Shown piece after piece: positions 7,098 to 45,168 of a stretch of DNA of 64,000 bases. Origin of the DNA: Styela clava (lineage: Eukaryota; Chordata; Ascidiacea; Stolidobranchia; Styelidae); contig NC_135252.1 of the NCBI RefSeq assembly GCF_964204865.1, forward strand, positions 9,569,383 through 9,633,382, in the 5' to 3' direction. The first letter of the stretch is position 1; each line of letters opens with the position of its first letter. Under the pieces are notes generated by a model. The model saw only the letters and a program-made list of their open reading frames with translations, was not told the DNA's origin and made no database searches. Made by a program: the position numbers and the translations under genes.

Positions 7098-10000
7098 CTG
7101 TGATAAATATAGAATAATAAATATATCGTTAAAGCAAAATTATGGTGAAAAAACTGACGGAGTGTGAGTGTACCACAAGGCTGTCCATTCAGTACAGTCG
7201 TATTGAGCATATATATTTATTTCTGAATTTAATTCCATCCCATTTATATGTATATAGCCAAATACTGCAGTTTGCGATTCACTATTCGTATGAATGTTGC
7301 GAATCTATTTGTCAGTGTAAAGCGACCCCTGACAAATATCACAGCTGCACGAGTACTTACAGCATCTGTCACCAGAAATCAAATGTTTAATATATGAATT
7401 TTTTTTCAGGAAGGTATGACCTGAACTGTGCCGTTGGATAATCTATCTATTTTGTGTTCCTAGCATTCGTTTTTTGCATTTAACTTACCGCCAATTTTCG
7501 AATTGGTAAACATCGGGACACCGCTAGCGTTCAGCTTTTCCCAAATTGTAACCCAACAGGAATCCCCTTACACATGTACAATATAGATTTAAGAAGATGA
7601 ACTACAAACAGTGCGAATTACTTGATAATATCTGCGTTGCATTGAAGTAATTTAGTTGCTGGAACCTTCGGATTGTGAAAATATTTTTTGATGATACCAC
7701 GAGCTTTCACTTGTCTAGATTTTAATTTATCAGCAATTCTTAAATTTTCCACTGCATTCCAGAAACTCAGTGCAAGATCAGCACGATGAGCTTTCAAATA
7801 TCTTTTGAAGAATTGAAAGTGAACTGTATCTTTCAGAACTTCTTGGAAATGCCTGGAAGTAATATAAATAATTCTTGTTAATTTAAATCAAAATAATGTA
7901 GCATTTTCGATGCTAATTTCATCAATTTCCCTTTACACGACGTTTCCACGCCTTCCACATGAAGAAGGCAATATCGACAATTAAAATAAACAAGTGGAAT
8001 TCCGTAATAAGTCACTGTATGTATCTTTAACTCCGATAACAATGGAAGCTATAACAGGATAAGTAGTCAATATGTATATAAAAAATATTTCTCATTTATC
8101 TACATAACATTAGAAAGATTGACTATTTTACTTGGGTCGTATGACAGGTCGTTTCATAAGTTGTCCTCCTTTTTTCAAAGGGTGATAAAGAGTTGCAGAC
8201 TGAAGTCTTCTATCGAACTGAATTTTAACGGAAGTTTGCAGACCGAGTGGATTGGTAGGATCTGGATATTGCTTTACTGAACGCGCAGCCAATTCCTTCA
8301 AATCTATAGGCGGTTCTGAAATTTGAATTAGAGAACTCGTAGCGATGAAACCCCAAAAAACATTCACAAAGTAAGAGTTACGTTCATCAATGGTTATCGA
8401 TTATTTCAGTCGGTTGACCTTCTCATCAGCTCACAAAATTAGCGCTGTATAGTTTTAAAATACAAGTTGGCCATACCACGTTGGTTCTCTAATTTAGACT
8501 GAGGAACCTAATTTAAACTGAGGAACTGTAATGAGTGCAGATTTTTTTTATGTTTAAATCACTGTGGATTGTACTTAATAATACCAGTCAACACTACTCC
8601 ATTCGGTGCAAATCTGATTGTAACAATCACTACAAATCAATTCTTTGATACCTCGACTGTCACTATCTGAAAAAAAGATACACAAAAATTTTACTTCGAA
8701 TGCACTTTGGTTCAGGTGGAGGGTCAACGCATCCGTCATCGTCACTCTCATCACTGGATATTCGATCAGTAATACAAGGATCCCGACCATCTGAAATTGT
8801 TTTATAAATATTTTACGTCAAATCAATCATTTAGAGTCGACATTTTTGTCCATATAAATAAACGGGCGTCAACGATTGCTTGCAAGTCTTCCATCAGCAC
8901 CCTTGCTACTTTGATGATTTGATCAAGCTTGTATACAGAGGCAATATGCATCGAAAATGTTTATTGGTCATACCCAGTTCAGCTCACCTGGCAAATTAAT
9001 TTCAATTATAAGTCGCAGTGACCTCGACATTCTTGAATTCATTTCTATTTGGAAATTCTCTTCCATATCAAATGAGGTGCTTAAATCGTAAGTGTCTTTT
9101 CCCAATTTGCCAATTGGAGGCAAAAACGGTGGTCTCTGACGCATTTCGTCCTTTTTAAAAGCCTTTGAAAGGAGTTTTTGAAGCGTTGCGTTATATACAA
9201 TGAGGATAATTCAAGTAACTAGTGCATTGCCTTCCACTAAAAAGCATTTTAAAACTTCTAATACATTTAATTTTTGTACTCCTCTTTTTACGGAATTCTT
9301 GTGAATTATTTCATTGTGGAAGAAATCAGTCTTAGTTTAAGTCTATACTATATGATAAATAATAATCGATTGAACAGCAATATAAACCAGAAACATCAGC
9401 GCTGATATGGCTGATCCTTGTCTGATGCGACGACATAAGTAAATATCCCGTATAAACCTACCGCTGCGTTGAGAAATGATTGTGTTTCTTGCTGACAAAA
9501 TGCTTCGTGTGCATACTTTAAATCTTCCATAACCTCCTTCTGTAATTTTCTGATTTGCCATGGCATTTCTTGCATTTCAGGAGACAAGCAATTCATAATC
9601 GCTTCTTCTCGAAGGGATTCTGGAGCTTCGATTCGACAAGGAGACGTATGCAACAGATATTGAGTAACTATTGATTGCATCTGAAATTTACGAAAGTTGT
9701 ACAATTATCTCAAAAATTTAAGAGTTATTTTGATTGAATTGAAAAACTCGATGAACGCTTTGGGCAGACAAAACAAGGTCTTGATATCACTACCAAAAGA
9801 GGCAAGCACTGTTCAATAAGCAATCCTCATAGAATGGGTGCCATTCTTCTTTATGTATATATATATATTTCCCCAAGTCGAACAGAAAGATCACCTATTT
9901 TCGATAACTCTTTTTTGTGAACGCGAGCAATGATGAATCAGGCAAGGAATTGCGTAAAAAAGTTTAATCAAAGCGAATACAAAAATATAGGAATATGAGG

Positions 10001-13000
10001 GGTCTCTTACCGACTGCATAAAACTATTGAACGACATATTCCCATATTGAAAATCTTGTCTTGTTTTTTCCACGTCTAACCAGAATCTGAGATAGGAAAC
10101 CATTTCTTCGTTGTCAGTCGTCACAAGGAACGTGCGGAATGGCTGTGAGGCGCATTGGTCAGATTGCAGGGCGAGAATCAGCCTTCGATTTTCTGGTCGT
10201 GACCGATATGCAATGTCTTTCTCCATTGTATATTCTCGGGGCGACACGGTAGGCACGATCATAACGGCTCTGTTGAATATATAAACAATAAGAATAAAAA
10301 GTCTTCAACTTATTAGTCTTTACACCGACCTCTGAATGATAAAAGGTCTTAGATTTTAGCTTGAAGCAGTTTTGATTCATACCCACGTAACTGTAAACAT
10401 AATTATGTATCGATATCATTGAACTGAACTATGTATATTGTACGTAAAATATTGCAAAGCCATTTAAAAGAATACAACGAAAACAAACAAATGTGTCACA
10501 ACGGGGGAAAATACAATATCCCATATTAATTCGATAATTAGGATCATGTCAAGACCAATCTGGAACTCTTGAGATGCAGCAATACTTTTCCAATTTCGTT
10601 ATACAATATACAAATTTGGTCATTTTTTATGTCTTTGAGTTTTAGCTATAATCTGTCACTCACGTTAAAGATGCAAGTTTTGTTGCGCGTCTGTGCGTTC
10701 TGCGATCTTTGACTTGTTTTAAAGATTTTTGATCGAGCTTTTTTGACTTTTTCGAATCTGAAGAGTCGACAGATCTTGCTGATTTGTCGGCAGGCGTTGG
10801 AGCATCACCGGACAGACTGAAAGTTAGGGTTGTTATCTAAAAATACATTTCATTTTATCAACTCAACTCGAATATCGCACAAATAGTCAGTAGGAAGATA
10901 CACAATATTAATTTCTATCTAAATATATAGATGAAATTTGTCAGGTATAAGTGTACCTCAAGGAAGTCGACTAGGTACATGGTTGTTTGTTTTATTTAAT
11001 TAAGAACCTTAGATTAATGTTATACGTCTCAGACAGTAACTGCACATTATTGACGTGGCTACAATAACTATACTCGACATAGACATATATTTTTTCGTTT
11101 TTACAGTCGCATATCGGCAACATTAAAGACTGTAAAGGCTGGAAATCGAATTTCTTTAGCGATCCAATCCCATTTGAAATCATGCTTCGCTATACTATAT
11201 CAAGCACACACGAATCGTTATCCATGAACAATAACATCACCAACAGTATTTCAAGTGATAGAGGTAGTAATGTTTAGGATTGTTAATTGATAGCAAAATA
11301 GCAACTTACTTTGTTCTTTTTTGGTTTATTTTTGGCGACGATACGACGTTTTTTCACTGAAGTTACGGTAATATTGGATCCAACAGAATCTTGTGATGGA
11401 GTCCGATTTAAGCTCGAAGGTCTTCTTAGTTTTCCCATTTTGCCAAAACTCATTCTAAATGTATCGAGTGTTTGATTTATCAGTAAAGAGTATATTGCGT
11501 TTTTTGTTGATTAATTGCAGGTTATGGAACCCATGCTCACCACCTCACTTGGGTGTGATAAATTGAGTACCCAAATCGAACTGGGAAGATTCCGGTGTTT
11601 CTTAATTAAATATCAGCTCCAACGTATTAGTTGTTTTGTTCGGGAGTAAAAATATAGTGTTTCTTATGATAGCATGATGTAAACAATTTTGTTCAGATGG
11701 AACGTGATATTTTTGTATGTCATCTCATGAATTTTGTTTTCTTGTCGGGATATTTCGACAGAATCCACTTACGTACTTGAGGTTGTGAGTGGTTAAAGTC
11801 GAAGAATTATCAATGCGTTATCAGGTATTGGAGATGATGCCACATTTGAGTCATCAGAATAAAATTAGTTTAATTCCTAATAAATATTTTCACCTGCTTG
11901 TCATTGACTTGAGACTTCCAAGAGATGAAGCATCAGACTGCCTTTCATTCATTCTTCGCGAAAGTTCATCTAACGATAGATCCCACATAGAAGGAGACCT
12001 AAGGTATTAGTGATATAGTTAGGATAAGATTATAACATATATTCCCGGGGAGACGAAAGCCGATAAGGCAATTTAATCATATAACGAACGACGGCTTCTC
12101 GTCTGGTTACCAGGTTGGGTATGGGATTAGTCAGCAAGTTATTTGTTTCAGATGCATGGACTTTATGGGGAGGAAGCCGTGCCGACAAGCGGTTACGTGA
12201 ACAACCTCACGGCGGAAAGAAGTGGGTCGATTCTCTAGCACATAAATATCCAACACGGGATTAAAACCTGTGAACCCACAGAGAGTAACCAAAGGTGCAA
12301 CGTTTAGCACAATGCGGCACACTGCCGAGTTTAAGTTTTCAGGCAATCTATCATTACAAGAGAAAGGATAATGTTATTTGAGAGCAATGTTTAAATATAT
12401 GGTCACGAAGTTCGCGCACCAGTAGCGGTGCGCGAAAGGATTGGAGGACACGGAAGGGGTCAAGCAATACGGGATTAATATCGGGCCAAGTAAGATTTAG
12501 AGGAAATTTGAAAACAGGAAAAAAAAGTTATAGCCTTCTAGCTACTAGGCCTACTTCCATCTTTAAATACTGAAAATTTGCAATCGATTCTTTCATCAAT
12601 TGCAAAGAAAAAAGAGATAATTTTTCTCAACAATACCAACAACAATAATTTAGCAAAACGGGGTCCATTTCGTGTCCAAGAATACAAAACCTGTTAAACA
12701 AGTCTGGTCTTTCCATTTCCGACCCATCCTGCATCGGTAATGAAGGTGGCGAAAGACTATTTGAACCAGGCAATTTCAGTGCCGCTTTGAGCAAAGATTT
12801 CCCCCCTGTCATTTCCATACCACCGAATGGAGAATGTTTAGGAACTTGTTTAAAATCTGGCAAGGGTCCTCCACCATCGAAAGCTTGACGTAACTCTTCC
12901 TCGTCATCGTCGAGCAAGATTTTCTAAGTGAAGCGGAAAAATTAGATTTGAACACAGAAGATTAATTTTTTTTTATTTTTTATACCTGAAATAGAGAATG

Positions 13001-16000
13001 AAATGCAATATTATCTCAGTTCCAAAACTTTTTCCAGAATAATATATTCATGGATACAACATAACATATGTGATAAAAAATACACCAATTTAGAATGATC
13101 CTTACTAACTTTTATTCTGTAATTTTTGTAACACTTACAAGGCCAACCACCACAACAAGCTTAATATGTATTTGGCAAAACGATCCATCGTGCTCAATAA
13201 GGAACTTTTGCTCAATAACCAAATTGTAAACGAAGTATATTGATGCAGTCGCGCCATTGAATGTCGTACCATAATAATGACGTATGGTAATAATACGATA
13301 ACCATACAAAAACCGAACAAAAGCAAGAGCGACAAAATTTGACTACTCATCACTTGCATTTTACCGTAAATCTTTCATGAAAACAATTCTCACCTGTCGA
13401 TCTATATTTTTCTTTCCTTTGGCAAATAGTTTGACTTGGTCAGATGACATACTTGGTCTTCGATAGGATTCTTTTACCAACAATTCTTCGAACTTTAAAT
13501 TTCGTTTATGAATTGATCTTTTTCTGTGCCTGTCTTTAAATCTAAACTTCTTTTCTTTCTTGTTTTTTCTAGAAAACTCGTTAAAAAGTTTAATTTCCAT
13601 GCAGATGTAGCGATATGCACACTCAAGATAGCATTGAAATAAGTAAGTACACTTACCGTTCTGAAACCTGTATGCTATTTAAAACTTACTAATATAACAC
13701 CAAAGATGAATTTTTGTCCTTCAAGAGATGCAATCACTATATAGTGACTTGATATATTGTAAATACAGTACCTATAGCTGTCATGAACACCTTCCCAACT
13801 CTCAGCGCTATCGCTACCCCCTGACGACTTTTTCTCACTCTTATCTGCCTTACTGCCACTGTCGGAACTTTCGGTGTCATCGTCTTTCCGGGATTCACCA
13901 GATTTGAGAGAACCTGTAACTCTATTTGCACGACGTTCTCTCGAACGAGCCTTTCTCTTTTCCATTTTTCTTTTATACTCTTCCTCGTCCTCACTTGAAG
14001 ATGCACTACCGGACGACCCACCTTTCACTGATTTATCAAGGCGGCCTTCGGAACTGCTGCTTGACACTCCGGGAGGGGGGTGTTCGCTGAATGAAACGCC
14101 TTTTCGGCCTAAGTGAAAACACTCGTCAGTGACATCCGAGCATACCTTACAATCGGTTTTAAAGATTCCAGAACAAAAAATACATCAGTGTAAAAATACA
14201 CTTTTTGGTACTAAGAAAGTAGAAACGCTAATATTTCCAAGTTTTTTTTTAAATATATCTGTGTAATGAAATATAATATTAATATATATAATAGCTCCGA
14301 TGGCTCTGATGGGCTCACCAGAACTCATACTAGAAAGTGTTTACAGTCTGAACAACAGCTAATGATTAAAGAATGAATTATTAATATAAACTCGTTCTCT
14401 CTAAATCCAAAGATCTTGAAGTAAAGCCGATTTACAACTAATAGAAACATTTTCAAAATTTAGTTAATTTATGAATATACCTCCACCATAAAAAGCCCCT
14501 TTTCCTAACTATACCACAATACCTCGTTTACGTTCAGATTCCGGAACTTTCTGGTCATCGATGATTTCTGACTTCTGAAATAATTGCATTAATTAAATGA
14601 TAATTAAACGTTATATTTATCATATTTATTTTATTGAGAACAGAAGCTTTACCTCTTTCTTGTCGCTGTCGGATTCTGACTTGAGCTTGTCGGCATGAGC
14701 TTGCTTTTCCTCATTGTCTGTCGGAGTAACTAACATTACTTATTAACAATGTTGCAAACGGGGCAAAAGCAGTACTCGCCGCGCGTAAGAAACACATTCG
14801 CCATAAGGACAGTGGTATGTATGCGTGGGCCATCTAGCTTCAAATCTTATACGGAAGGTTATAATTATTAGTTGTGCGAGATTGCTCGTTGTCAAATTAT
14901 GATTTCGACTTACAATCCAACCACATCATAAATCTATAACGTTTAGCTGGTTTATGTCTATACTTCCACACCATACAGACTGTTCGGTGAACAAAAGTCG
15001 TCTTCTCGCTCGAAAATTTATGAATACTTTGACATACAAGTTCATTTGCAAAATTAATTATTAATAAAAACGCGTTTTTCGTAGAAATCAATTGTAACAA
15101 TCGGCAGCAGCAGTAGTTCGTGAAAAAAATCACTGGATCAAATGCTACGTCAAAATTTATAAAACATATTATATAGTATACCATGGTATAGTGAATTTTA
15201 ATTGAAATGTCAACTGCTATAGGAGTTATATATCAAGTGTTATATTAGGACCTGCTTGATTGTTATGTATATTTTAATGTATATTTATATATTTTTACCT
15301 TCTACGTGTTCTTCGGCAGATCGTTCTGTCTCAGTATCAATTTTTGATTCAGACTGCTCTGTACTTGACTCGGACGACGATTCCTCGGCAGTAAGCACAA
15401 TTCCCCCTCGCAGATACTTTTTAGCCAAATTCAAATTACTTTCTTCTTCTTCATTCAAAACCAGAGGGTTTTGTGCCAACAAATAACGAGGCATCCAATA
15501 ATCTTTCAAGCGACTAGCGCAAAGCTTCAAAAAAAAAGATGATATACTTTTATGATTCTGATCAATAAATTGTTATATTCCGTTAAAAAAGAGAATAGAG
15601 AAGTTGTAAAAAATCGTTAAATTGACCTCTTTTTGTATGTAATCATTATCGAAGTCACAGTAGTGCAAGGTTGGCCATTAAAAGCAACTCTGATACTAGA
15701 AAACATCAAAAAAGTGCGTTTTGTTGACCCATACTCTATGAAATACTGCATTTAATCAATTGAATATACTGATATTCCATTCCCTGACATTTCACTAGGT
15801 TTGTTCATGAGTAAATTGTGCACACAAGTAAAAGCGCGACCATTCTATAGACGGCTCGATCATGTTCTAACAAACTTGAATATCAACATTCTTTTTAATT
15901 TCAATAAAGTATATTCAGAATCAACTCACTCTTTGGAGACAGATGGTAAATGTGATGTCGTATGTCTTTGCGTCTTTCGCAATCCCGAGAGTGCGATGTG

Positions 16001-18640
16001 ATGACGGCAAAGTGTCCCAAGCAAGGTCGAGTAAATGCTGAGGCATCGCAGATTCACCATTTCCGGTAAAGTATTTCTCTTTAATAGCATTAAAAACTTC
16101 CATGGAAGAACTCGATCGTTTCTTCACATTGTAGTATCTGAGGTTAAAATAAAGTATTAAAAACATAGTATGAAGTTACATAATCCATACACAATTGTGT
16201 GAAATATGTGACACGGGCCTTGGAACACATTCGAGCGTTAAAATTTTTATAGAAGTTTGCTCAAACCAAGTTCATTAGTTCTCAACGGAAAATGAAAAGA
16301 ATTATTGACAGATAAAATTGCAAGAGGCCAACATAGCGACAAGATCTATTAAATATTTATTTTGCGCAGAATACGCAAAGAACAAAACGTGAAATGTAAT
16401 GTAAGCTCTATCGTGTCAATAAGCAGCGAGATAGACATGCATCAGATCCAGTGATGTCTAGTATAAATAATCAGGCGATCTCAGAGAAAAAAAATACTCA
16501 CAGGCGTTCCGAATCCAGCCAATACTGATACAGTTTGTCACCAGCATCGCTTTTTTCGCGTAAAAATTTTCGGAACTTACGAATGGATGACACCCGACCG
16601 AGACATTTTTTTTGTAACCATGTCAATGCTTTGTGAACTTCTCGTCCAGCTGATTGTCAACAAAAAAAGTACTACAAACAAATCCGTCGAAACTTTACTA
16701 ATATCAAAAAGTCTATGTAGTTCACGAACTTTGAAACAAAATTCATTTATTCAAGAGCTTATTGTTGTATACAAAATTTCAACTTGAAACACTCGCCCCA
16801 AGAAACTTTCTCTTTTCTAAAATTGCCTCCTGTGTAACAGTTTAACAATTCTCTATACGATTTAGTATAGATATATGACTGAATTTGAATATCGTTATGA
16901 CAATACGCTTCTGGTTTTAGTGTGCAGATATGCGTTCATCAACCAACAGTAACTTTTTGAAATATCAATTATTCTATTCGGTAATAGAAAGTCGGGTTAT
17001 AATGAAAATTAGTAGGCTACTGTATTTTACCCCAAAGTGTGGAGGCTATGAATATTACTCATAAAAAACTTGCTGACAAATAAGTATTTGGTAGTAGTAA
17101 CCTAAAATTAATTGAACAAACCTTCCGTCTTTAATACTCGACCACGTTCTTTTATGAAGGAATGTCGAATAAGGTAATTGCATAAGCGATATTCGCCAGA
17201 AAAACGACTGTTCAAGAAAAGATTCAGACGTTTTCTCCACAACCATTCTACCAATCCGTTGTTATTGAGTGACTGTAATTTTCATAAAGTATGAATGAAT
17301 TTTATAACGTTGATTGTGTGATCCACAACAATTAATGTGCGAATGGTTCCATCTCAAGAAACGAGCTTTAATTAAAATATGAAAAAACATGTCCGAATCA
17401 CATGTAAACGCTACTATTGCTTTAAATTGGACAATTTGTATTGAACATGTCAAAATTTGTCAGAAAATGTATGCTTTCAATACCTTCAGTTATACCTGCT
17501 ATGCTGCTAATATAATGTCTGCTAAATAGGACAGATAAACCTATCCCAGCTTTATTGCCTAACCAACAGCAATCGTGTATGTTCTAAACACGTGCAGGTA
17601 GATATGATTACAAATACCTAAATGAACTATATAGAAATATTGTTAATGCGATTTTTAGTAGAACAACAACACGGTAAAAAATTAAATATCTTACATATTT
17701 GTTTCCTGGTAATGGAGGATGGAGAATGAATCTCTGCCGCTTTTTACTGTAAACAACTAATTGTGCAAATGCCTGAAAATTAGGAATAGATTATGTAGCA
17801 AAAGATTCAGATATTTTGACAAGCCAAATCATGAACAAGTGGAAAGATATAAAATATGACTTTCAGGCCTACATCATCGGTATTTTCCATGATGCGACTA
17901 ATCACTCACTTTGGAACAACTACCACATTATTAACCGTCAAATTGAAAATGAGGAATAATAATATGAATAGAAAAACACGTACTGGCAGGCATATAAATT
18001 TGTTGAAATAGTCGATAAATTCATCTTCTTTCAGAAGTTTTCTAAAATCGCCCAATGTTATTGACGTCCCTGAACAAAACAGACGTATGTCACATGATAT
18101 GTATTTTGCAATTGTGTGATTCAAGATCTTGAAGATGCTGTAAGAATTACACTATTGGAGAGTTGTGTGAAATATTTTGAAAAAGGACAAGCAGGGCAGA
18201 CCACGTCAATTGCACGAATGTCCGTTATCATATACTTAGTTTGGGATTTACATCGGAAGAGAGATAGGACAACAAGACGATTTTATCAGATGGCCTATCA
18301 TAACCTCTTTTTAGGTTACCGGACCAGGTTGAATATGGAAATATGAATGAAGTTATTTATCCAATTTATTGAATGAAATCCATGGACCTGTATGGCTGAA
18401 GGAGCAGTCACCGACATACAGTCACATGAAACACAAGCAACACCGTGAAATCTAGCAATCCTCTCACACAGAGTCTAATATTCCGCGGGATTCGAACCAG
18501 TATTCGCCAATTGTCGAGGCTTTTAATCAGTAGGTAAGTTACTGCACCATGACTTTAAACCCTTCGTAAGATACTAGAATGCAGTTTTTCTTTTAGCTAA
18601 AAGCATATTGAAATAAGAAACAAGTACCTGATCTGGACAT
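3617..18640 (-). CDS. RGS22: RGS22 homologue (multi-RGS-domain protein), 28 exons
   Basis: Large regulator-of-G-protein-signalling protein, about 1517 aa (human RGS22 is about 1264 aa). Known RGS22 proteins are testis-enriched and bind G-alpha subunits. The start ATG (18638-18640) lies in a 13-nt exon that splices in frame to an exon ending in DEFIDYFNKFICLP, which matches the conserved RGS22 N-terminus. RGS-like segments lie at about residues 124-250, 736-895, 1068-1212 and 1213-1420. They are separated by long Ser/Asp/Glu/Lys-rich linkers. The C-terminus has the conserved LFHEATIYVFPLLLHFW block, then RFCAEHYRYVPTLSKKHR and a basic tail. All 28 exons keep one open frame to TAG at 3617-3619. 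Head to head with the C7orf57 homologue. The donor of exon 20 (8598-8666) is the least certain junction. No TM segment or signal peptide was seen, so it should be intracellular. Confidence 0.92.
11515..11625. repeat. Dispersed repeat, copy 1
   Basis: This RGS22 intron segment shares a pattern with 31740-31845: AACCCATGC(T/C)CAC(C/T)ACCTCACT, then AAATTGAGTA, then GAA(C/T)TGG(G/A)AAGATTCC. The two copies are about 70-75 percent alike by eye, in the same orientation on the plus strand. The family is not identified. Confidence 0.6.
12030..12345 (-). repeat. tRNA-derived SINE, minus orientation
   Basis: Lies in the RGS22 intron between exons 12 and 13. It shares CTCGTC(C/T)G(G/A)TTACCAG, GGGTATGGGATTAGT and AGATGCATGGACTT with the copy at 22550-22806. 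On the minus strand the high-coordinate end is a tRNA-like head with a decayed B box (AGGTTTTAATCCC). Probably inactive. Confidence 0.6.
13772..18640 (-). other. RGS22: RGS22 exons 1-10 (N-terminus, first RGS domain, acidic linker)
   Basis: Coding exons in transcript order: 18628-18640, 17984-18069, 17695-17772, 17122-17272, 16502-16649, 15930-16137, 15299-15524, 14653-14729, 14523-14574, 13772-14108. Exons 5-7 carry the first RGS fold (FRKFLREK, LYQYWLDSERL, RLKDYWMPRYL). Exons 7-10 encode a low-complexity linker rich in Ser-Glu, Lys and Arg, probably disordered. Every junction is GT-AG and phase-consistent. Confidence 0.88.
18230..18560 (-). repeat. tRNA-derived SINE, minus orientation, B box intact
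   Basis: Sits in RGS22 intron 1, between the 13-nt first coding exon and exon 2. Read on the minus strand it has a perfect B-box-like GGTTCGAATCC near 18490-18500. It shares CCATGGACCTGTATGG-type and AGCAATCCTCTC blocks with the copies at 12030 and 22550. It lies within about 80 bp of the first coding exon. Confidence 0.6.
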
Positions 18641-18785
18641 CCCGAAACCTTGCCAGCGTCTGTTTCAGTGCCTACCAGTTGGAATTGCGTTCTCCAATGT
18701 TTACAAATTACTTCCAATCAACATTTGACCCCAATCATTGTGACATCATAAATACATCTCTTTGCTCTTTTGCGACACAAAGTGG

Positions 18786-18790
18786 CCAAT
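18786..18790 (+). promoter_or_regulatory. CCAAT box
   Basis: CCAAT between the divergent start codons of RGS22 (18640) and C7orf57 (18927), six bases before the X-box-like motif. CCAAT next to X-boxes is common in bidirectional promoters. The role is inferred from position only. Confidence 0.4.
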
Positions 18791-18795
18791 AATCC

Positions 18796-18809
18796 GTCTC
18801 CGAGACAAC
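18796..18809 (+). promoter_or_regulatory. RFX X-box-like site in a bidirectional promoter
   Basis: GTCTCC-GA-GACAAC fits the X-box consensus RYYNYY N1-3 RRNRAC at every position and is nearly palindromic. It is 156 bp from the RGS22 ATG and about 118 bp from the C7orf57 ATG at 18927, within the usual distance for RFX-driven ciliary genes. The consensus is degenerate, so a chance match in about 290 bp is possible (my estimate is a few tenths). The CCAAT box and the gene pair strengthen the case. Confidence 0.5.
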
Positions 18810-18926
18810 GGCTTGTTAGCATTTTCACTATTCGATAATCGGTGCACTTGTACGCGTCTGGCTTGCGAGGCTTTTATTGCAGCGACTGCGTTCCTTCGCT
18901 CATTTGTGCAATTGGTGGCAGGAAGG

Positions 18927-21900
18927 ATGCTTGCTAACAGTGGTCAAATGTGGTTTTACCACGCACCTTCGAAGAGAACAGAAAAACCTCAAAAACTTGC
19001 CCCTGCTGCGTCTCAGATTCCAGGTCTTGCTGCTCTAGATCCCCTTGATCAGGAAGCATGGGAACGCGAAGTTGGCATCAAGTGAGTTGAATTTATAGAA
19101 ATATTCTGATAACAGTAATAGCCACATTTATTTGTTTGTGTGTCAGTGCTCTTTAATATTGTAACGTTACCTAAGTGTAGTTTTTCATGGCTTGGTTTTT
19201 CTTAAAGCTTTCATGGCTTAATGAGTATGACTATTGTCGCAACTTTATAACATTCCACTCCCCACATTATCTTTGCATGAGGTTGTAGGTATTGGTCATG
19301 ATCAATGTAATTGTTGAAAGTACAACAGCCCGAAAGTTTAATACTATTGTGTATTTCGTTTGTTAAGTTTGACCCAAGCCTCATTTAATTGGGCTTGTGT
19401 TTTTATGTGTGTGTTGGTGGGCAGGCACATGAGACACTTCATGTTTTGAACCTTTTTATAGGTTTTTCTTGCCCTCCAGAATTCTCCATTTTTAATTTAT
19501 GTATGTTTCTGGAGTTTTCGGAATAAACTATCTATCTATTTAAGGTACCATATGTTTGTATGTTAAAATAATTTACTGAATTAAGCAAATTGCAACTTTT
19601 CCGAGTCTTAGTATTTCTATGTCTTTAATTATACAAGGAGTTTTTTTTTGTACTCGAGATACATAAAATAAGTGGTTTGCAATATATACAAACTTGAGTG
19701 CAATGAAAGCGCTTTTCCAAGTACATAAACACAGGTCAGCATGTTTGGATTCGAACCAAAAATAGTTAACTATGATAATACTGTATGCGCTGCTTAACTT
19801 GTTGACAGGTTTACATAATGCAAGATTTATGTATGAATTATTAACTTATAACACAAGTTTTATCTAAGTATCTAAACTTTAGCCTTAATACTATAATATG
19901 ATTAATAATTGTTATTCATTTCAGGAGTCAGAAACAAGCCAAGGAATCAGATTCTCACTATATTAGGCTTGCCAAGCAGGGAGGAAGAAAAAATCTTCTA
20001 ACATTTCGTGACATAGTAAGTCTTCAATTTTGTAACCGTTCATTACAATTGTGTTTGAAAAATATAGCGTAACCTATAATATGGTACAAATGTAATGAAA
20101 TTATATATTCAATTTGTATGGTATTTTGAACAATGAAATTAGAAAGTTCAGTTATCAGAAATAGGATAATTGTTAACTGATATCAAAATTATTTGTAGAA
20201 ACCACCATCAGAAGAAATTCAACCTTATCCAAGAGTTGATTGGTTTGATCATCATGACTGTGACCCAGAAAAAGACAAAAGAATGTAAGTTAATTACCTG
20301 CTATAAAAAGTAATAAAAATAAATTTTTCTTTGCTTTCATTGATTTTTACTGCATTGCAAATAAGCATTATAGTGGTTAAAGGGGAAATCTAGCAACTAA
20401 TTATGCATATTCTCAAGAGATCTCTTTTTCCCAATGTGATAACCTTGTATGACTCACATACTTAGTAGTTAATTTTGATTTTGAATAATATTAAAAAGAA
20501 AACTTGTAGTCAATCAGGAAGATAATAAGGAGATGTATACACTTTCTACTAAAATATGGCTAATCATTTCCTCTATTTTTGTTGCTGTACATATGCACTA
20601 TATGTTATATATTGGGTTATAATACAAATCAGTAGCAAAATAAATCATATCCTATATTAAAAATATCATCACTGATACTGCTTACTGCACAAACCATTAT
20701 TGTTTTGGTGTCTTAAAATAATTCTGTAAAATTCATATCTTCAGTAAAATAATTCAATTTATACAAAGATTATCACAATCAACATGGCAACCACCTGAAT
20801 ATATGGTACACGATTATGAAACTACTGAGAAGGATAAGATGATGGAAGATGAAGAAATTGTTGGCAGAGCTAAGCCAAGACGTGCCCCTTTCTATTCTGA
20901 CAATATGTCGGCATGGTCAAGGCCGGAAGAAGATAACCCTAAAGTACGATATTTATCAATTTATTTTTTAAAATCACAATAGAAACAAATAAGTGCACCG
21001 GCTTATAACATATCAATTAACAAAGTTCCTAGTTGTTGGTTTTATGATATTGAAATATTTATTTGTTTGGGATGGTATAATACAGTCATATTAATGAGAT
21101 TTCTTCAACTGCAAGATTCAATGTTTTATGTGCTAAATCTAAAGTAAATAATAATAATAAACTGACTTTTACTATTTCTTTCAGCGAAATAAGAAGAGGA
21201 AGAGTCAAATTAAGGTTGACAAACTACCAGAACTTCCCTTAAAGTAAAGCAGATTTGCATTTTATTTGTGGAAACACTTTTTTCTATTTCCAATAGAATG
21301 AGGAATTAACGGATTTGATTTAATTGTAGACAATAAAGTCAAATTATCAGGCTGATATTTTTTTGATATATGTATTTAATAGGTTGAATAAACTGAAATG
21401 GAAAATTTTTAGTTGTTAATTTTATATTGAATGAAAATGATTGATTGTATACAAAACAAATTTATTCAAAACTGCAGTGCAAAACTGCAGTAAATTCAAC
21501 TTTTTTTTCTAATATATTTAACATAACTTTTTTCCTTCAATTTTTCACTCTTATATTATCTATATAAAGGCTCACTTTGTACTCAATATACCCAATCAGA
21601 GGCTATTTCAAAGTAATTATTACTGTTCACAGAACACAGAAATCACCTCCTGTAGCATTCTCAAAATTAATTGGTGGAGAATATGGAACAGAATGGTATA
21701 GAAAGCAGGCTACACAAGGACAAAGCAAGGCCAAATTTACACAATATCAATCTGGGAAAGGTAATTTTTTTTAAATATTTTTCAAATAACTCAATCTATG
21801 ATCATTTCAGGTAGAATATCCTAATAGCACAGTGAATACTATACTAATATGCAGGCAGAAAAATCAACGACCACTAGACAGAAAAACATTTTAGATTACA

Positions 21901-22990
21901 AAAATCTTTTTTTTTTTTAATTTCCATAAAGCAAAATTTAATACCATTAGAGTCTTCCCAATATGGATTGCGCAATTTTGAATATCTCAAAATTATAATC
22001 AATATCTACAGATGATCAGTAATATAGCATTGGGTGGCCTTAATGTATAGGGTGCAGTGCAGACATTGCACATTGGGAATATCTAATGTTAAAATTTTTT
22101 CTAACCAGGATACTTAAATATGACTGAATATCAACAAAATATTTGCCGAAAAGTTATACCACCAAAAAAATTGAAACCAATATCAATGCCACAACAGAAA
22201 AAAGAAACAGAAACAAATCAAGAAAAACCTATGTTCAAACTAAGCAAGTAAGTCTTCTGGTTTATTTCATCTAGTATTTCAGTAATGTATTTATTTGTGC
22301 AGTGATCAGTGGTTAGAGCTTTGCACTCCACTATGTTGGCATTGTAGGTTACAGATATAGAATTCAAACATCATGATCGAGCAGGCAATGCCGAACTGAG
22401 ATTCTAGTCCTAAAATTAGCAGCTTTTCAAAAATAATTGTCCGCTTGTGAAAGTCTTTGTTCAGAGCGGGAGCCCTATACAAATATAGAGTAGGAATTTA
22501 CATATTTATCCCGAGGTAGAGAAAAGCACTATGATGTCTTAATCATTGCAAACCACGGCCTCTCGTCCGATTACCAGTCGATGTTGGGTATGGGATTAGT
22601 TAGGCAGTTGTTTTAGATGCATGGACTTGATGGTGGACGAAGCCGTAACCGACTACCCTAAGGGGGTGCGGAGTTCAGCAATCCTCTCTCACATACCATA
22701 ATTATCTCCCAGAGGATTCTAACCAGCGAACCTATGCAGGGTAATCGGAGGTGCAGTGGTGAGCATATTCCTAACGCTTAGCACGATTTGCCACACCGCC
22801 GAGCCCAGCACAGCAATTATTCTGTATAAAACTCAATCTCAAAAAATTTGATCTCAGATTGATATATGATTTACCATATTGAGTTAATTTAAATTAATTT
22901 GTATGTGACGTTCGTTAAATTTTCTCGTTTTTTATTTTCAGATTTAGTAAAGTGGAATCAAAATTGAATACTGTACCTCACGAAACGTGA
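18927..22990 (+). CDS. C7orf57: C7orf57 homologue, 8 exons
   Basis: Homologue of the vertebrate protein C7orf57, whose molecular function is not established. Exons: 18927-19081, 19925-20015, 20199-20284, 20745-20943, 21185-21243, 21633-21760, 22109-22247, 22942-22990, stop TGA 22988-22990; about 301 aa (human about 295). Conserved blocks in order: WFYHAPSKRTEK, ASQIPGL, SDSHYIRLAKQGGR, PRVDWFDHH, PPEYMVHDYE, RRAPFYSDNMSAW, and FSKLIGGEYGTEW. The last half is Lys/Gln-rich. No signal peptide or TM segment. An in-frame upstream Met at 18762 would add 55 residues, but that stretch covers the X-box region and does not resemble the family N-terminus, so 18927 is preferred. It diverges from RGS22 and converges on the vWA gene. 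Confidence 0.9.
22300..22500 (+). repeat. SINE fragment related to the copy at 2689
   Basis: Lies in the last intron of the C7orf57 homologue. GGCAATGCCGAACTGAGATT and the later GTCCG...GAAAGTC...TTCAGAGCGGGAG pattern match the body of the 2689-2940 SINE. The head (AGTGGTTAGAGCTTTGC) is tRNA-like but decayed. Confidence 0.5.
22530..22806 (-). repeat. tRNA-derived SINE, minus orientation
   Basis: Directly follows the plus-oriented SINE fragment in the same intron. It shares the blocks listed for the copy at 12030. The high-coordinate end (CGCTTAGCACGATTTGCCAC) is the reverse complement of the tRNA-like head. Confidence 0.6.
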
Positions 22991-41043: not shown

Positions 41044-44000
41044 ATGGAAGTGAAGAAGTTACGCATTTTACTGCTGATATTAATAGGTTTTACTTGCTTG
41101 GGTATCATTAGGTAAGTCTTTTAGAGTAGGATTATCACGCATAAATGATGAGTGTTGATTGCGAGCGTCAATCTGTCTATTTTTAGGTTAACGACTCTAT
41201 ATGAAGAATTAGTTCCATCCAAGTTATACAAATTGGGAACGCAAACTTCCGCGTATGGATCGGTGACAAGTGCTGGCGAAATACCAGTCGAATACTTCAG
41301 ACTGGAGCCACAACACCGTATTGAATGGCATCAGGTTCTCAAGTTTAACTTTTCTGTAGAACCCGATACAAATCGTCGAAGAATTCCAACACGATTTTGG
41401 ATAAATTCTCTTCAAGAAGTCAACCACGATCTTGACTTTGTTTTAACTCCAAGAGCAACAAAATGCCGCCCAGGTATGTATCCACAACAGATGGAAAAAA
41501 GGTAGTTTTCTGATTTTGAAGTCTCGCATAAGGTTTAGTTCTAGAACGCATGCATAATGGTAGAACTTTACGTACTTTATTTTTGTTACTTTGGGGAACA
41601 GAGCACTGATTACAGCAGCATTATCGGATTCAGTTATTATCGCGACATTACTACTGATTTCAACGATATGACGACGTTTTAATAGGAGCGTAATTCATCG
41701 AGTATATGGGTATATATATATAAAATCTCAGGGCATGAAGTATGACCAAGTTTTCAGGATGATAACTCAATCTGATACAAATTCGATTTATGGAAGTAGT
41801 TTATTTAAAAAAATGAAAAACTCTACCATTTTCTATATATAAATTGCAGATACTCAGGTTCTCATTTTGGTAAAGAGTGCAGTGATGCATATCGAACAAA
41901 GAAAAGTAATTCGTAAAACCTGGGGTAGCGTCAAGAACGTGGATAAATATGAGGTGAAACGAGTAAAGATTTATCAATTTGCATGACGTTAACCCACATA
42001 AACTAAGTTATTGCAGTTACCTCATGCATTTAATATGAATGCTTGTATCGCACCAAATATGTACCCTTAAAGCAATGCTTCGTAAATAATAAATTAATAA
42101 AATAAATAAAATAAAACAATAAAGGGCGGCGTTATATTGTATAATACTCATGAAATGAGACACCTATGATAATGACCTCAGATAATCAGGAGCCATATCA
42201 TCTCTACTAACGTTGCTTGTATTGTGATTCAGATACTTTATCTACAATGAGTGGAGGCGATTTTTAATACGTGCTTGCAGATTATTCTGAATATGTTCAC
42301 TATTATATTGCTTAATTTACAGATTCGCATTTTATATTTGCTCGGAAAGATGCGGGATAATTCACAAACCTTAGAAAGCCCTCTTCTAACAAATGAGGCA
42401 GAAGAATACGATGATATTGTGATGGGAAATTTTATCGATGCATACACAAACGTTACCAAGAAATCTTTACTAGGATTAAAATTTTTTTATGAATTCTGCA
42501 GGTGCTATTTTTATAAATGATTTTCATACCAATGTCATTAACTTTATAGACTAAATCTAAATATAATCTTAGGTTGCGATAAATCAATCTTTTTCCTGAA
42601 AACTCACACTAATTGAATTAGGGTGAGATAGAAAGAAAAAACGATTTCTACGGTATAACGTATGTATATTTGCAGTCATTATCAGTTGACAAATACCTTT
42701 CTTTATTTGTTTACCCTCCATTTCTTCGAATCGACACTACTTCACAAAAAGATTAAACAAGTAATTGATGATTGAAATGTCATGTATGTATTTTGTTTTG
42801 AATTTTGCTAGAGGAGTTGAGTTTGTAATGAGCGCAGACGATGATATTTTTCTGAACACTACTGAGATGATAACTCAGCATTTTTCAAAGCTCACTCATC
42901 CAGCATCACAAATTCTGCAATGTGGACTCCGCACAGTGAAATATGCTAAGGTATAATCCTCTTTTCTTAGCTACAAACTTCGCCAAAGCAGATTTGCCAG
43001 TTTTGAATCATGTACAACTGTCAAAATCCGTGCACAAAAAAGTCTCAAAATCAAACGTAAAACATAACAAATTCTGTTATAAGTTGATTAAGTAATCAGT
43101 AATTTATTTTTTTATCGTACGGAAAATACACTTTACATAAACGATATAAAGAAAAAAAAACGTAATAATGGCATTTCAGGGTAAAGGGAGGCGCGAAAAA
43201 ACAATACTGGTTAACGAGTAAATACACCCGTAATTAAGTCAATGAGTAAACAGTAATTAATACAGAAGTGAAAAAAGTCAAACATTGTATCATTACTAAG
43301 GGAACTTGGATATTGTGTATTGAACTGCAGGTCCTTTCTTCTTGTTTACTTTCTACTTCGGATCCGTATTTACTTTACTTATTGTATCATTAATAAAAGT
43401 TTACGGCAAAAAAACATAACCAAACCCGTTACATATAAGAATACGACTCCGAGCACCGACAAGTAGGGTAACCATAGGAACCGCATTCCAAAGACGCAGC
43501 AGCACTAAACAAATTACCGGTAGGGACAAGTGGGACACGACATTTTGGAGACACCCGTATCTAAGAATGGATACTGTTTTGTTTGCTCTCAGAGGCAGAT
43601 TCACATTATCCAAAAAGGTTTCTGTGGTCGTCGAGTCCCGTATGTAGCCAACTATGCATTCATGATAAATACTATACTACGGTACTATAATTTATGATAA
43701 ATTTCTTTATTTAGTGGATTAAGAAATTGTTTATGAAGCCACAGGCACGCACGCACGCACGCAATCTGCAAATGTCACTATTTTGTATTTTTTCTACTTC
43801 TACCTTTTTTGTCAATTCATTTTTGCAACTACAATTTTTTATATGAATTTCCATACGCCTTCTCGTTTATGCTAGGTGAAGCGAAACGGCAAGTGGTCCA
43901 TAGAATACGAAAAATACAATCGACCATTCTACCCTCCATACTGTCTTGGACCATGTTTTCTAATGTCAGTAGATGTCGCCTTGGCAACTTATGAAGCATC

Positions 44001-45168
44001 TTTTCAAACCCCTACTGATATATCAATAGACGATGCGATGATTACTGGTATACTCAGAGAGAAGGTATTTGCATTTTTTTTTTCAGATCAATATAACAGT
44101 GTGAATTCTGAATTGTTTGCAAAGGATGACTATAATAGTTATATTTTTATTTCTCTTGCAATATACCCATTTCAACCAAATCGATAATTTTATAACATAA
44201 TCCAATACAAAACTCGGCAAGTGCAATTTATGACATAATGTAAATGTAAATAATATAACATATGACGTTCTATTCAATCCCCATAACCATTACAATTACA
44301 CAGTTTTATAACTAGGAATTTGTTACATTGAAAAGCAATTATTTTCAAGAAATTCTCGTCTTTTCGTGCGTGGTTACTAATTCTTCTATTACTGATAACA
44401 AACAAATTATTTAAAAATTGGAAAGCGAATCAAATCGTATTTTGGGGTAAATTTGTAATTTTCAAAATCTATCACGCCAGCCATGGTACGTCTTAATGTT
44501 CGTGCCAGAGGCTAAGTGAACATGCTTGTAATATTATCAGTGAATCAATAAAGATTTCATTCTCAATTATCTGGGATCAGAAATTTTTTAATATGTTCAG
44601 GCGTGCTCTTGATATTTTTTGCCAACGTACGCGGAAAGTGCATACCAATAATAAAATTGTTGCAAATGCCTTTTTGCAAAAATATTTTGCAGATTTATCA
44701 ACATTGCTCTGCAAGAATTTTAGCAAAAATATGAAACCTGAAATTTGCCAATTTGCCAAAACTTTGGTAATTGAGAGTATTTCAATGTTGAATGCCATGT
44801 GAAGTATAGTTCTAATACCTTATCAACCGAAAACCTAAAGTTCAGCAAGTATCGTGGGAATCGTGTATTTTGAATTTGCGGGAATTTGCACGAATTTGCA
44901 CGAATTCGCACAACTTTGTCAGAACAAAATTAAAATGCCACCAATTCTATTATTGCATTTACGAAGCTGAAAAAATCACGTAACTGACTGACTTTCTTAT
45001 ATTAAAGACGCCTTATATTAAAAATATATAAATATAACAACAATCAATTCGTTTTTTTGTCAGATTGGAATTCAATTGTCTAGCATGCGTAAAGGTGTTT
45101 GCGTTCACCTTTCAAATTCTGATCACGTGATTGATAAACTTCTCAAAGCGTGGAATGGAACGTTCTGA
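41044..45168 (+). CDS. Beta-1,3-glycosyltransferase, GT31 (B3GALT/B3GNT type), 7 exons
   Basis: Type II Golgi enzyme that should transfer galactose or N-acetylhexosamine in beta-1,3 linkage from a UDP-sugar. Exons: 41044-41111, 41187-41473, 41850-41953, 42323-42501, 42812-42950, 43876-44064, 45064-45168 (TGA 45166-45168); about 356 aa. Residues about 7-22 form the membrane anchor after a short basic N-terminus. Family motifs in order: QRKVIRKTWG, RILYLLG, YDDIVMGNFIDAYTNVTKK, the metal-binding DDD in SADDDIFLN, YCLGPCFLMS, and IDDAMITGIL in place of the usual EDVxxG. N-glycosylation sequons occur, for example NFS and NTT. Donor and acceptor specificity cannot be told from sequence. Introns contain a short GCAC microsatellite and repeats. 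Confidence 0.9.
43745..43763. repeat. GCAC microsatellite
   Basis: Between four and five tandem GCAC units in the intron before exon 6 of the GT31 gene. Confidence 0.8.

Follow-up and report, generated by a model that had tools for sequence, protein, structure and literature searches.

Two genes that point away from each other in the Styela clava genome, homologues of RGS22 and C7orf57, raise the question of whether the short interval between their start codons is one promoter serving both and, if so, whether that promoter is driven by RFX factors. We examined a 64-kb stretch of DNA, referred to here as the window. The opposed start codons lie at 18640–18638 on the minus strand and at 18927–18929 on the plus strand and are separated by 286 bases, the distance given in the first-pass annotation. 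A bidirectional promoter is commonly defined by divergent genes whose starts are less than 1 kb apart, and the gap between the two start codons (18641–18926) is treated as a putative one. The human RGS22 and C7orf57 genes lie on different chromosomes, and the pairing, called lineage-specific in the first-pass annotation, may be so. The gene names and the head-to-head layout that had been proposed from the sequence were upheld by gene models, Pfam and matches to an RGS22 chain.

The plus-strand gene (18927–22990) encodes a C7orf57 homologue of 301 aa in eight coding exons that form one open frame to the stop codon. Exons 1–4 (18927–19081, 19925–20015, 20199–20284 and 20745–20943) and exons 5–8 (21185–21243, 21633–21760, 22109–22247 and 22942–22990) are joined across GT-AG introns. 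The protein matched Pfam DUF5524 with an E-value of 3e-22 and 79.8 bits (cut-off 35.6); we take DUF5524 to be the C7orf57 family and PF17662 to be its profile. A search against solved structure chains returned nothing up to E 1, and one scan of viral contigs with the protein as query found no relatives. Under Gm11992, presumably the mouse name of C7orf57, the literature contained nothing relevant as judged by titles and abstract openings. Introns are compact in this region, and the GC content of the window is ~35%. A 26-nt stretch occurs in two copies that are 81% alike, one in RGS22 intron 1 (18454–18479) and one in a C7orf57 intron (22677–22702). Their surroundings resemble an old dispersed element, and the first carries on the plus strand GGATTCGAACC, which we take to be a tRNA B-box-like motif. 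Downstream of C7orf57, minus-strand ORFs between 28237 and 36419 have EGF, Sushi and VWA domain matches and appear to belong to one or more extracellular proteins, and the plus-strand ORF 49861–50190 matches Pfam Transferrin (4.8e-13).

On the minus strand, the coding part of RGS22 exon 1 comprises 13 bases (ATGTCCAGATCAG; 18628–18640) directly followed by the donor GTACTT, and an in-frame TGA is located nine codons upstream of the start codon. The acceptor TTCAG, ending at 18070, leads into exon 2 (17984–18069, minus strand), and the joined reading is MSRSGTSITLGDFRKLLKEDEFIDYFNKFICLP. This exon 2 stretch aligns to residues 13–42 of 9fqr_Ha, a solved chain of Regulator of G protein signaling 22, with 4.5 bits when scored alone. 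A further exon is contained in the minus-strand ORF 16501–16656 (9fqr_Ha residues 400–436, 4.2 bits alone), and a second RGS-like stretch of the gene is contained in the minus-strand ORF 9891–10304 (Pfam RGS, E 0.012; 16.5 bits against a curated cut-off of 23.9). The RGS-domain exon lies in the minus-strand ORF 7621–7887. Of the 19 sequences that this ORF matched up to E 1, 9fqr_Ha was the best (3.9e-05); the remaining 18 were RGS proteins, sorting nexins and fly CG5036. When searched alone, ORF 9396–9704 gave nothing up to E 0.1. With the RGS22 pieces joined into a single query, 9fqr_Ha was the sole chain at E ≤0.001 (1.7e-06), and four stretches of the query were collinear with it, from residues 13–42 through residues 827–916. 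Three of these four stretches score just 2–5 bits each and the choice of pieces was guided by the human protein, which leaves the argument to their order and to the last stretch. Amid the RGS22 exons lies a Ser/Glu/Lys-rich ORF (13678–14184, minus strand), possibly a low-complexity insert of RGS22.

Both proteins have been described as ciliary. RGS22 is reported in sperm at the radial spokes RS1 and RS2 and as bridging to RS3 (PMC11779644, PMC12423330), is named as a radial spoke component (PMC12979858) and is assigned to the cilia class in a protein-level table (PMC3338421). C7orf57, renamed FCAP33, was identified in a proteome of cilia, and the presence of the mouse homologue in primary cilia is reported as confirmed (PMC12583597); it also appears among the proteins of motile ciliated cells (PMC12772120). 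Both are given in CilioGenics as candidates with earlier experimental support (PMC11317154), and the literature that names the two together consists, by title, of broad gene-list or network papers such as this one. For the S. clava genes, ciliary status is thus assigned by homology, from mammals. The first-pass annotation had expected a shared promoter to support C7orf57 as a ciliary protein; the assignment itself stands through the localization of FCAP33 to cilia, but the promoter is not needed for it, and C7orf57 gains little from the promoter, since earlier publications had placed both proteins in cilia.

The ciliary nature of both proteins, together with the 286 bp between their start codons, would also fit an old and widely shared RGS22/C7orf57 head-to-head unit that was broken in vertebrates and otherwise preserved through joint action of the two proteins. 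Against such a unit stands the outcome of the structural searches: RGS22 finds a solved chain whereas C7orf57 finds none up to E 1, so that the structures do not hint at a complex containing both. We consider this origin extremely unlikely. A limited search of open-licence literature retrieved no description of RGS22 and C7orf57 as neighbours.

The gap itself differs from its surroundings in composition, with a GC content of 46% compared with ~35% for the window, and both GC and CpG are raised over part of 18641–18926. A motif scan of the 286 bp found neither TATAWA nor GGGCGG. It did find five CCAAT/ATTGG boxes, four on the plus strand (18694–18698, 18714–18718, 18731–18735 and 18786–18790) and one on the minus strand (18911–18915, read as ATTGG on the plus strand). 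The box at 18786–18790, the only one named in the first-pass annotation and exactly where it was reported, is located 5 bp from an X-box-like site. With 0.71 boxes expected per 286 bp, this is the densest cluster in the window: only 0.11% of all 286-bp windows contain five boxes, every one of them overlapping 18641–18926, and simulated gaps do so in 0.08–0.25% of cases. Five CCAAT/ATTGG boxes in the company of zero TATAWA correspond to the CCAAT/NF-Y enrichment without TATA of bidirectional promoters. NF-Y and CCAAT-box motifs are reported as enriched in human bidirectional promoters (PMC3121118), and three bidirectional promoters of medaka histone genes are reported to contain NF-Y motifs (PMC11676430).

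An acceptor-like TTTTATTGCAG at 18880–18882, 44 nt ahead of the C7orf57 ATG, may mark a 5' UTR intron or a spliced-leader site. The same good-looking acceptor is what would be expected if the genes had two separate, closely spaced promoters, with a non-coding exon further upstream, or else a spliced leader, joined to C7orf57 at the TTTTATTGCAG ending at 18882, the start of C7orf57 lying elsewhere and part of the gap being 5' UTR. The rise in GC, the CCAAT cluster and the X-box-like site all fall inside the gap, which argues against separate promoters, and we regard this arrangement as unlikely.

The X-box-like site is an inverted repeat at 18796–18809 (GTCTCCGAGACAAC; GTTGTCTCGGAGAC on the minus strand) that was recovered by both consensus and a fly RFX matrix. 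It is near-palindromic with a spacer of 2 bp, and the two start codons are 117 bp and 155 bp away. In fly, 22 of the 26 sites used here are located 60–321 bp upstream of the ATG (PMC2375033), and in worm ciliary genes the X-box distance is given as 100–250 bp (PMC2873420). The fit to RYYNYY N2 RRNRAC previously noted at 18796–18809 is exact, on the plus strand and again on the minus strand, and this is the sole such place within the gap. The weight that had been put on this full consensus was undercut, as the looser form RYYNYY N1-3 RRNRAC has 84 matches in 64 kb, or 0.375 per 286 bp (strands counted apart, spacers 1–3, and 18796–18809 counted twice), and the paper from which it comes describes it as non-predictive (PMC2375033). 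According to that paper, the fly genome contains 50,000 matches to the loose consensus, control genes have RYYNYY-type boxes at equal frequency, and an X-box upstream of the ATG did not predict dRFX dependence, for which conservation was required (PMC2375033). The loose consensus was consequently set aside as evidence and, being too common and non-predictive in its own source, was replaced by restricted forms.

Of the five restricted consensuses (PMC2375033), the X-box-like site passes four, on the minus strand as GTTGTCTCGGAGAC. Including 18796–18809, the window holds 50 matches to RYYVYY-RRHRAC, 24 to GYTNYY-RRNRAC, 17 to GYTDYY-RRNRAC and 9 to GYTRYY-RRHRAC; the last, with N1-3 as spacer, is the narrowest form passed, and its 9 matches amount to 0.040 per 286 bp. 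The strictest consensus, RTNRCC N1-3 RGYAAC, is not matched in the gap and has one match in the window, elsewhere. This form is not defining on its own, because several fly X-boxes are reported to deviate from it too, such as GTTGCC AG GACAAC (PMC2375033). The half-sites GTCTCC and GACAAC are present in the X-boxes of CG14870 and CG3259, two genes that are down in the dRfx mutant (PMC2375033).

The fly RFX weight matrix was derived from 13 of the 20 X-box rows in Table 2 of PMC2375033, covering dRfx-mutant down genes in both species (26 sites) and zero rows from invariant genes. Rows two and three of CG9595, the two rows of CG12548, and the rows of CG13178 and CG18631 were left out for lying at least 264 bp from the D. 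melanogaster ATG. One of the CG15161 rows, the second, was left out for having a D. melanogaster site identical to that of the first; the CG15161 row that was kept lies at 321 bp, which means that the distance rule was applied loosely. Seven more dRfx-mutant down genes are reported to lack a conserved X-box and hence a row in the table (PMC2375033). With this matrix, which comes from flies and of which one row, CG14870, itself carries GTCTCC, the site at 18796–18809 scores 14.3 bits and ranks second in the 64-kb window. In leave-one-gene-out scoring the 26 fly sites span 13.1–23.0 bits, placing the site within the fly range but below 23 of the 26. A site of at least this score is contained in 0.86% of sliding 286-bp windows, and an equal or better site arose in 0.9% of simulated gaps with window composition and in 2.9% with gap composition (4,000 each). 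We consider 18796–18809 plausible though fairly weak as an RFX site, credible but not compelling.

The only match in the window that scores higher is GTTGCC AA GGCGAC on the minus strand at 43975–43988 (21.7 bits). It sits in the ORF 43876–44187, a Pfam Galactosyl_T match, and probably reflects chance or codon use. A better match inside such an ORF means that one good motif match proves little and calls for caution with motif-only claims.

These figures bear directly on the possibility that, in a compact genome, the gap is simply a CCAAT-driven bidirectional promoter of the ordinary kind, in which the X-box-like string is there by chance and any ciliary expression comes from distal enhancers or from each gene's own elements. 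The five-box cluster, the densest of the window and found in 0.08–0.25% of simulated gaps, outdoes the X-box in significance, and the 84 loose matches in 64 kb to a consensus described as non-predictive (PMC2375033) point the same way. Set against this, the X-box-like site remains one of the two highest-ranking in the 64 kb and lies between two cilium genes. An ordinary promoter of this kind is a possibility that we take seriously while doubting it.

Across the 376.6-Mb genome (379 contigs), the perfect GTTGCCATGGCAAC occurs in four places and a reversed control string in zero. Two of the four are in copies of one repeat on different contigs (locus L002, 1451–1654; locus L004, 1364–1561) with a nearly identical ORF in both, and this repeat family could spread RFX-type sites. 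By eye, and considering ORFs of at least 45 codons within 3-kb loci, no cilium gene was recognized near any of the four places. With two of them in one repeat and no cilium gene recognized, the perfect GTTGCCATGGCAAC places were set aside as a positive control.

Apart from the X-box and the CCAAT box at 18786, the motifs in the gap were picked after it had been inspected, and this post hoc choice makes the chance figures for the extra motifs flattering. They include a weak CRE-like TGACATCA at 18741–18748, with one mismatch to TGACGTCA, which we take to be the CRE consensus, and a forkhead-type core, TGTTTAC, on the plus strand at 18698–18704. On the minus strand, this core fits RYMAAYA, given as the generic FOX consensus (PMC4168999). 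RYMAAYA has four places in the gap, including 18698–18704, and such fits say little because there are 345 strand matches in the window. We give the core at 18698 little weight, since TGTTTAC is found by chance in 4–7% of simulated gaps and forkhead motifs are reported to be depleted at promoters bound by FoxJ1 when compared with distal sites (PMC5245798).

Compared with the ciliary RFX/X-box promoters of C. elegans (DAF-19), fly (dRFX) and vertebrates (RFX2/3), the S. clava gap shares the near-palindrome, the 2-bp spacer, the start codons at distances of 117 and 155 bp, and the fit to RYYNYY N1-3 RRNRAC and four of the five restricted forms. It differs in that its site scores below 23 of the 26 fly sites and would serve two genes at once. 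With the CCAAT/NF-Y-rich bidirectional promoters of animals it has in common a head-to-head gene pair separated by a few hundred bp, multiple CCAAT boxes, the absence of TATA and a rise in GC and CpG over part of the gap; unlike them, it joins two cilium genes. An X-box next to an inverted CCAAT box is also reminiscent of the MHC class II X-Y module, in which RFX and NF-Y act with a spacing of over ten bases. Here the X-box and the CCAAT box are 5 bp apart and an immune gene is absent, and a module of the MHC type was rejected on this spacing.

The identities of the two genes, their head-to-head layout, and the motif content of the gap with its statistics are established. On this basis, the most probable reading, to which we give about even chances, is that the gap is a CCAAT-rich bidirectional promoter common to RGS22 and C7orf57 that is plausibly RFX-driven. 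On the minus strand, a compact, TATA-less and CCAAT-rich gap would then serve RGS22, a protein of the radial-spoke head, and on the plus strand C7orf57/FCAP33. Factors of the NF-Y type at the CCAAT boxes would hold the gap open in both directions, while an RFX dimer at 18796–18809 would give expression in cells that build motile cilia or flagella, perhaps joined by a FoxJ1-type factor at or near 18698. The shared RFX-driven promoter suggested by the first-pass annotation is thus partly supported and plausible: by strict measures the site exceeds chance, yet it stands at the weak end of known sites.

Published work on other animals offers a setting for such a switch. RFX motifs are reported as enriched at promoters of multiciliated cells, where FoxJ1 binding needs Rfx2 (PMC5245798), and in mouse spermiogenesis RFX2 sites are described very near the transcription starts of most target genes (PMC4498915). 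Rgs22 is not named in the main text of the latter paper. A literature search for RGS22 together with RFX returned no title or abstract containing either term, and in the excerpts of the literature joining bidirectional promoter, X-box, RFX and cilia, 'bidirectional' was used once, for another gene.

In summary, the RGS22/C7orf57 arrangement is tidy and attractive but of a well-known and ordinary kind. A bolder reading, in which a lineage rearrangement set both genes under one RFX/FoxJ1 switch and was kept for matched dosage of two proteins of the same axonemal assembly, strikes us as very unlikely; if true, it would place C7orf57 near the radial spokes. The general picture of cilium-gene regulation is unaltered by this pair, both proteins being already known as ciliary. 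Should the shared promoter prove to be real and driven by RFX, it would provide a neat natural case of two axoneme genes on one switch and a lead to the role of C7orf57 in the cilium.
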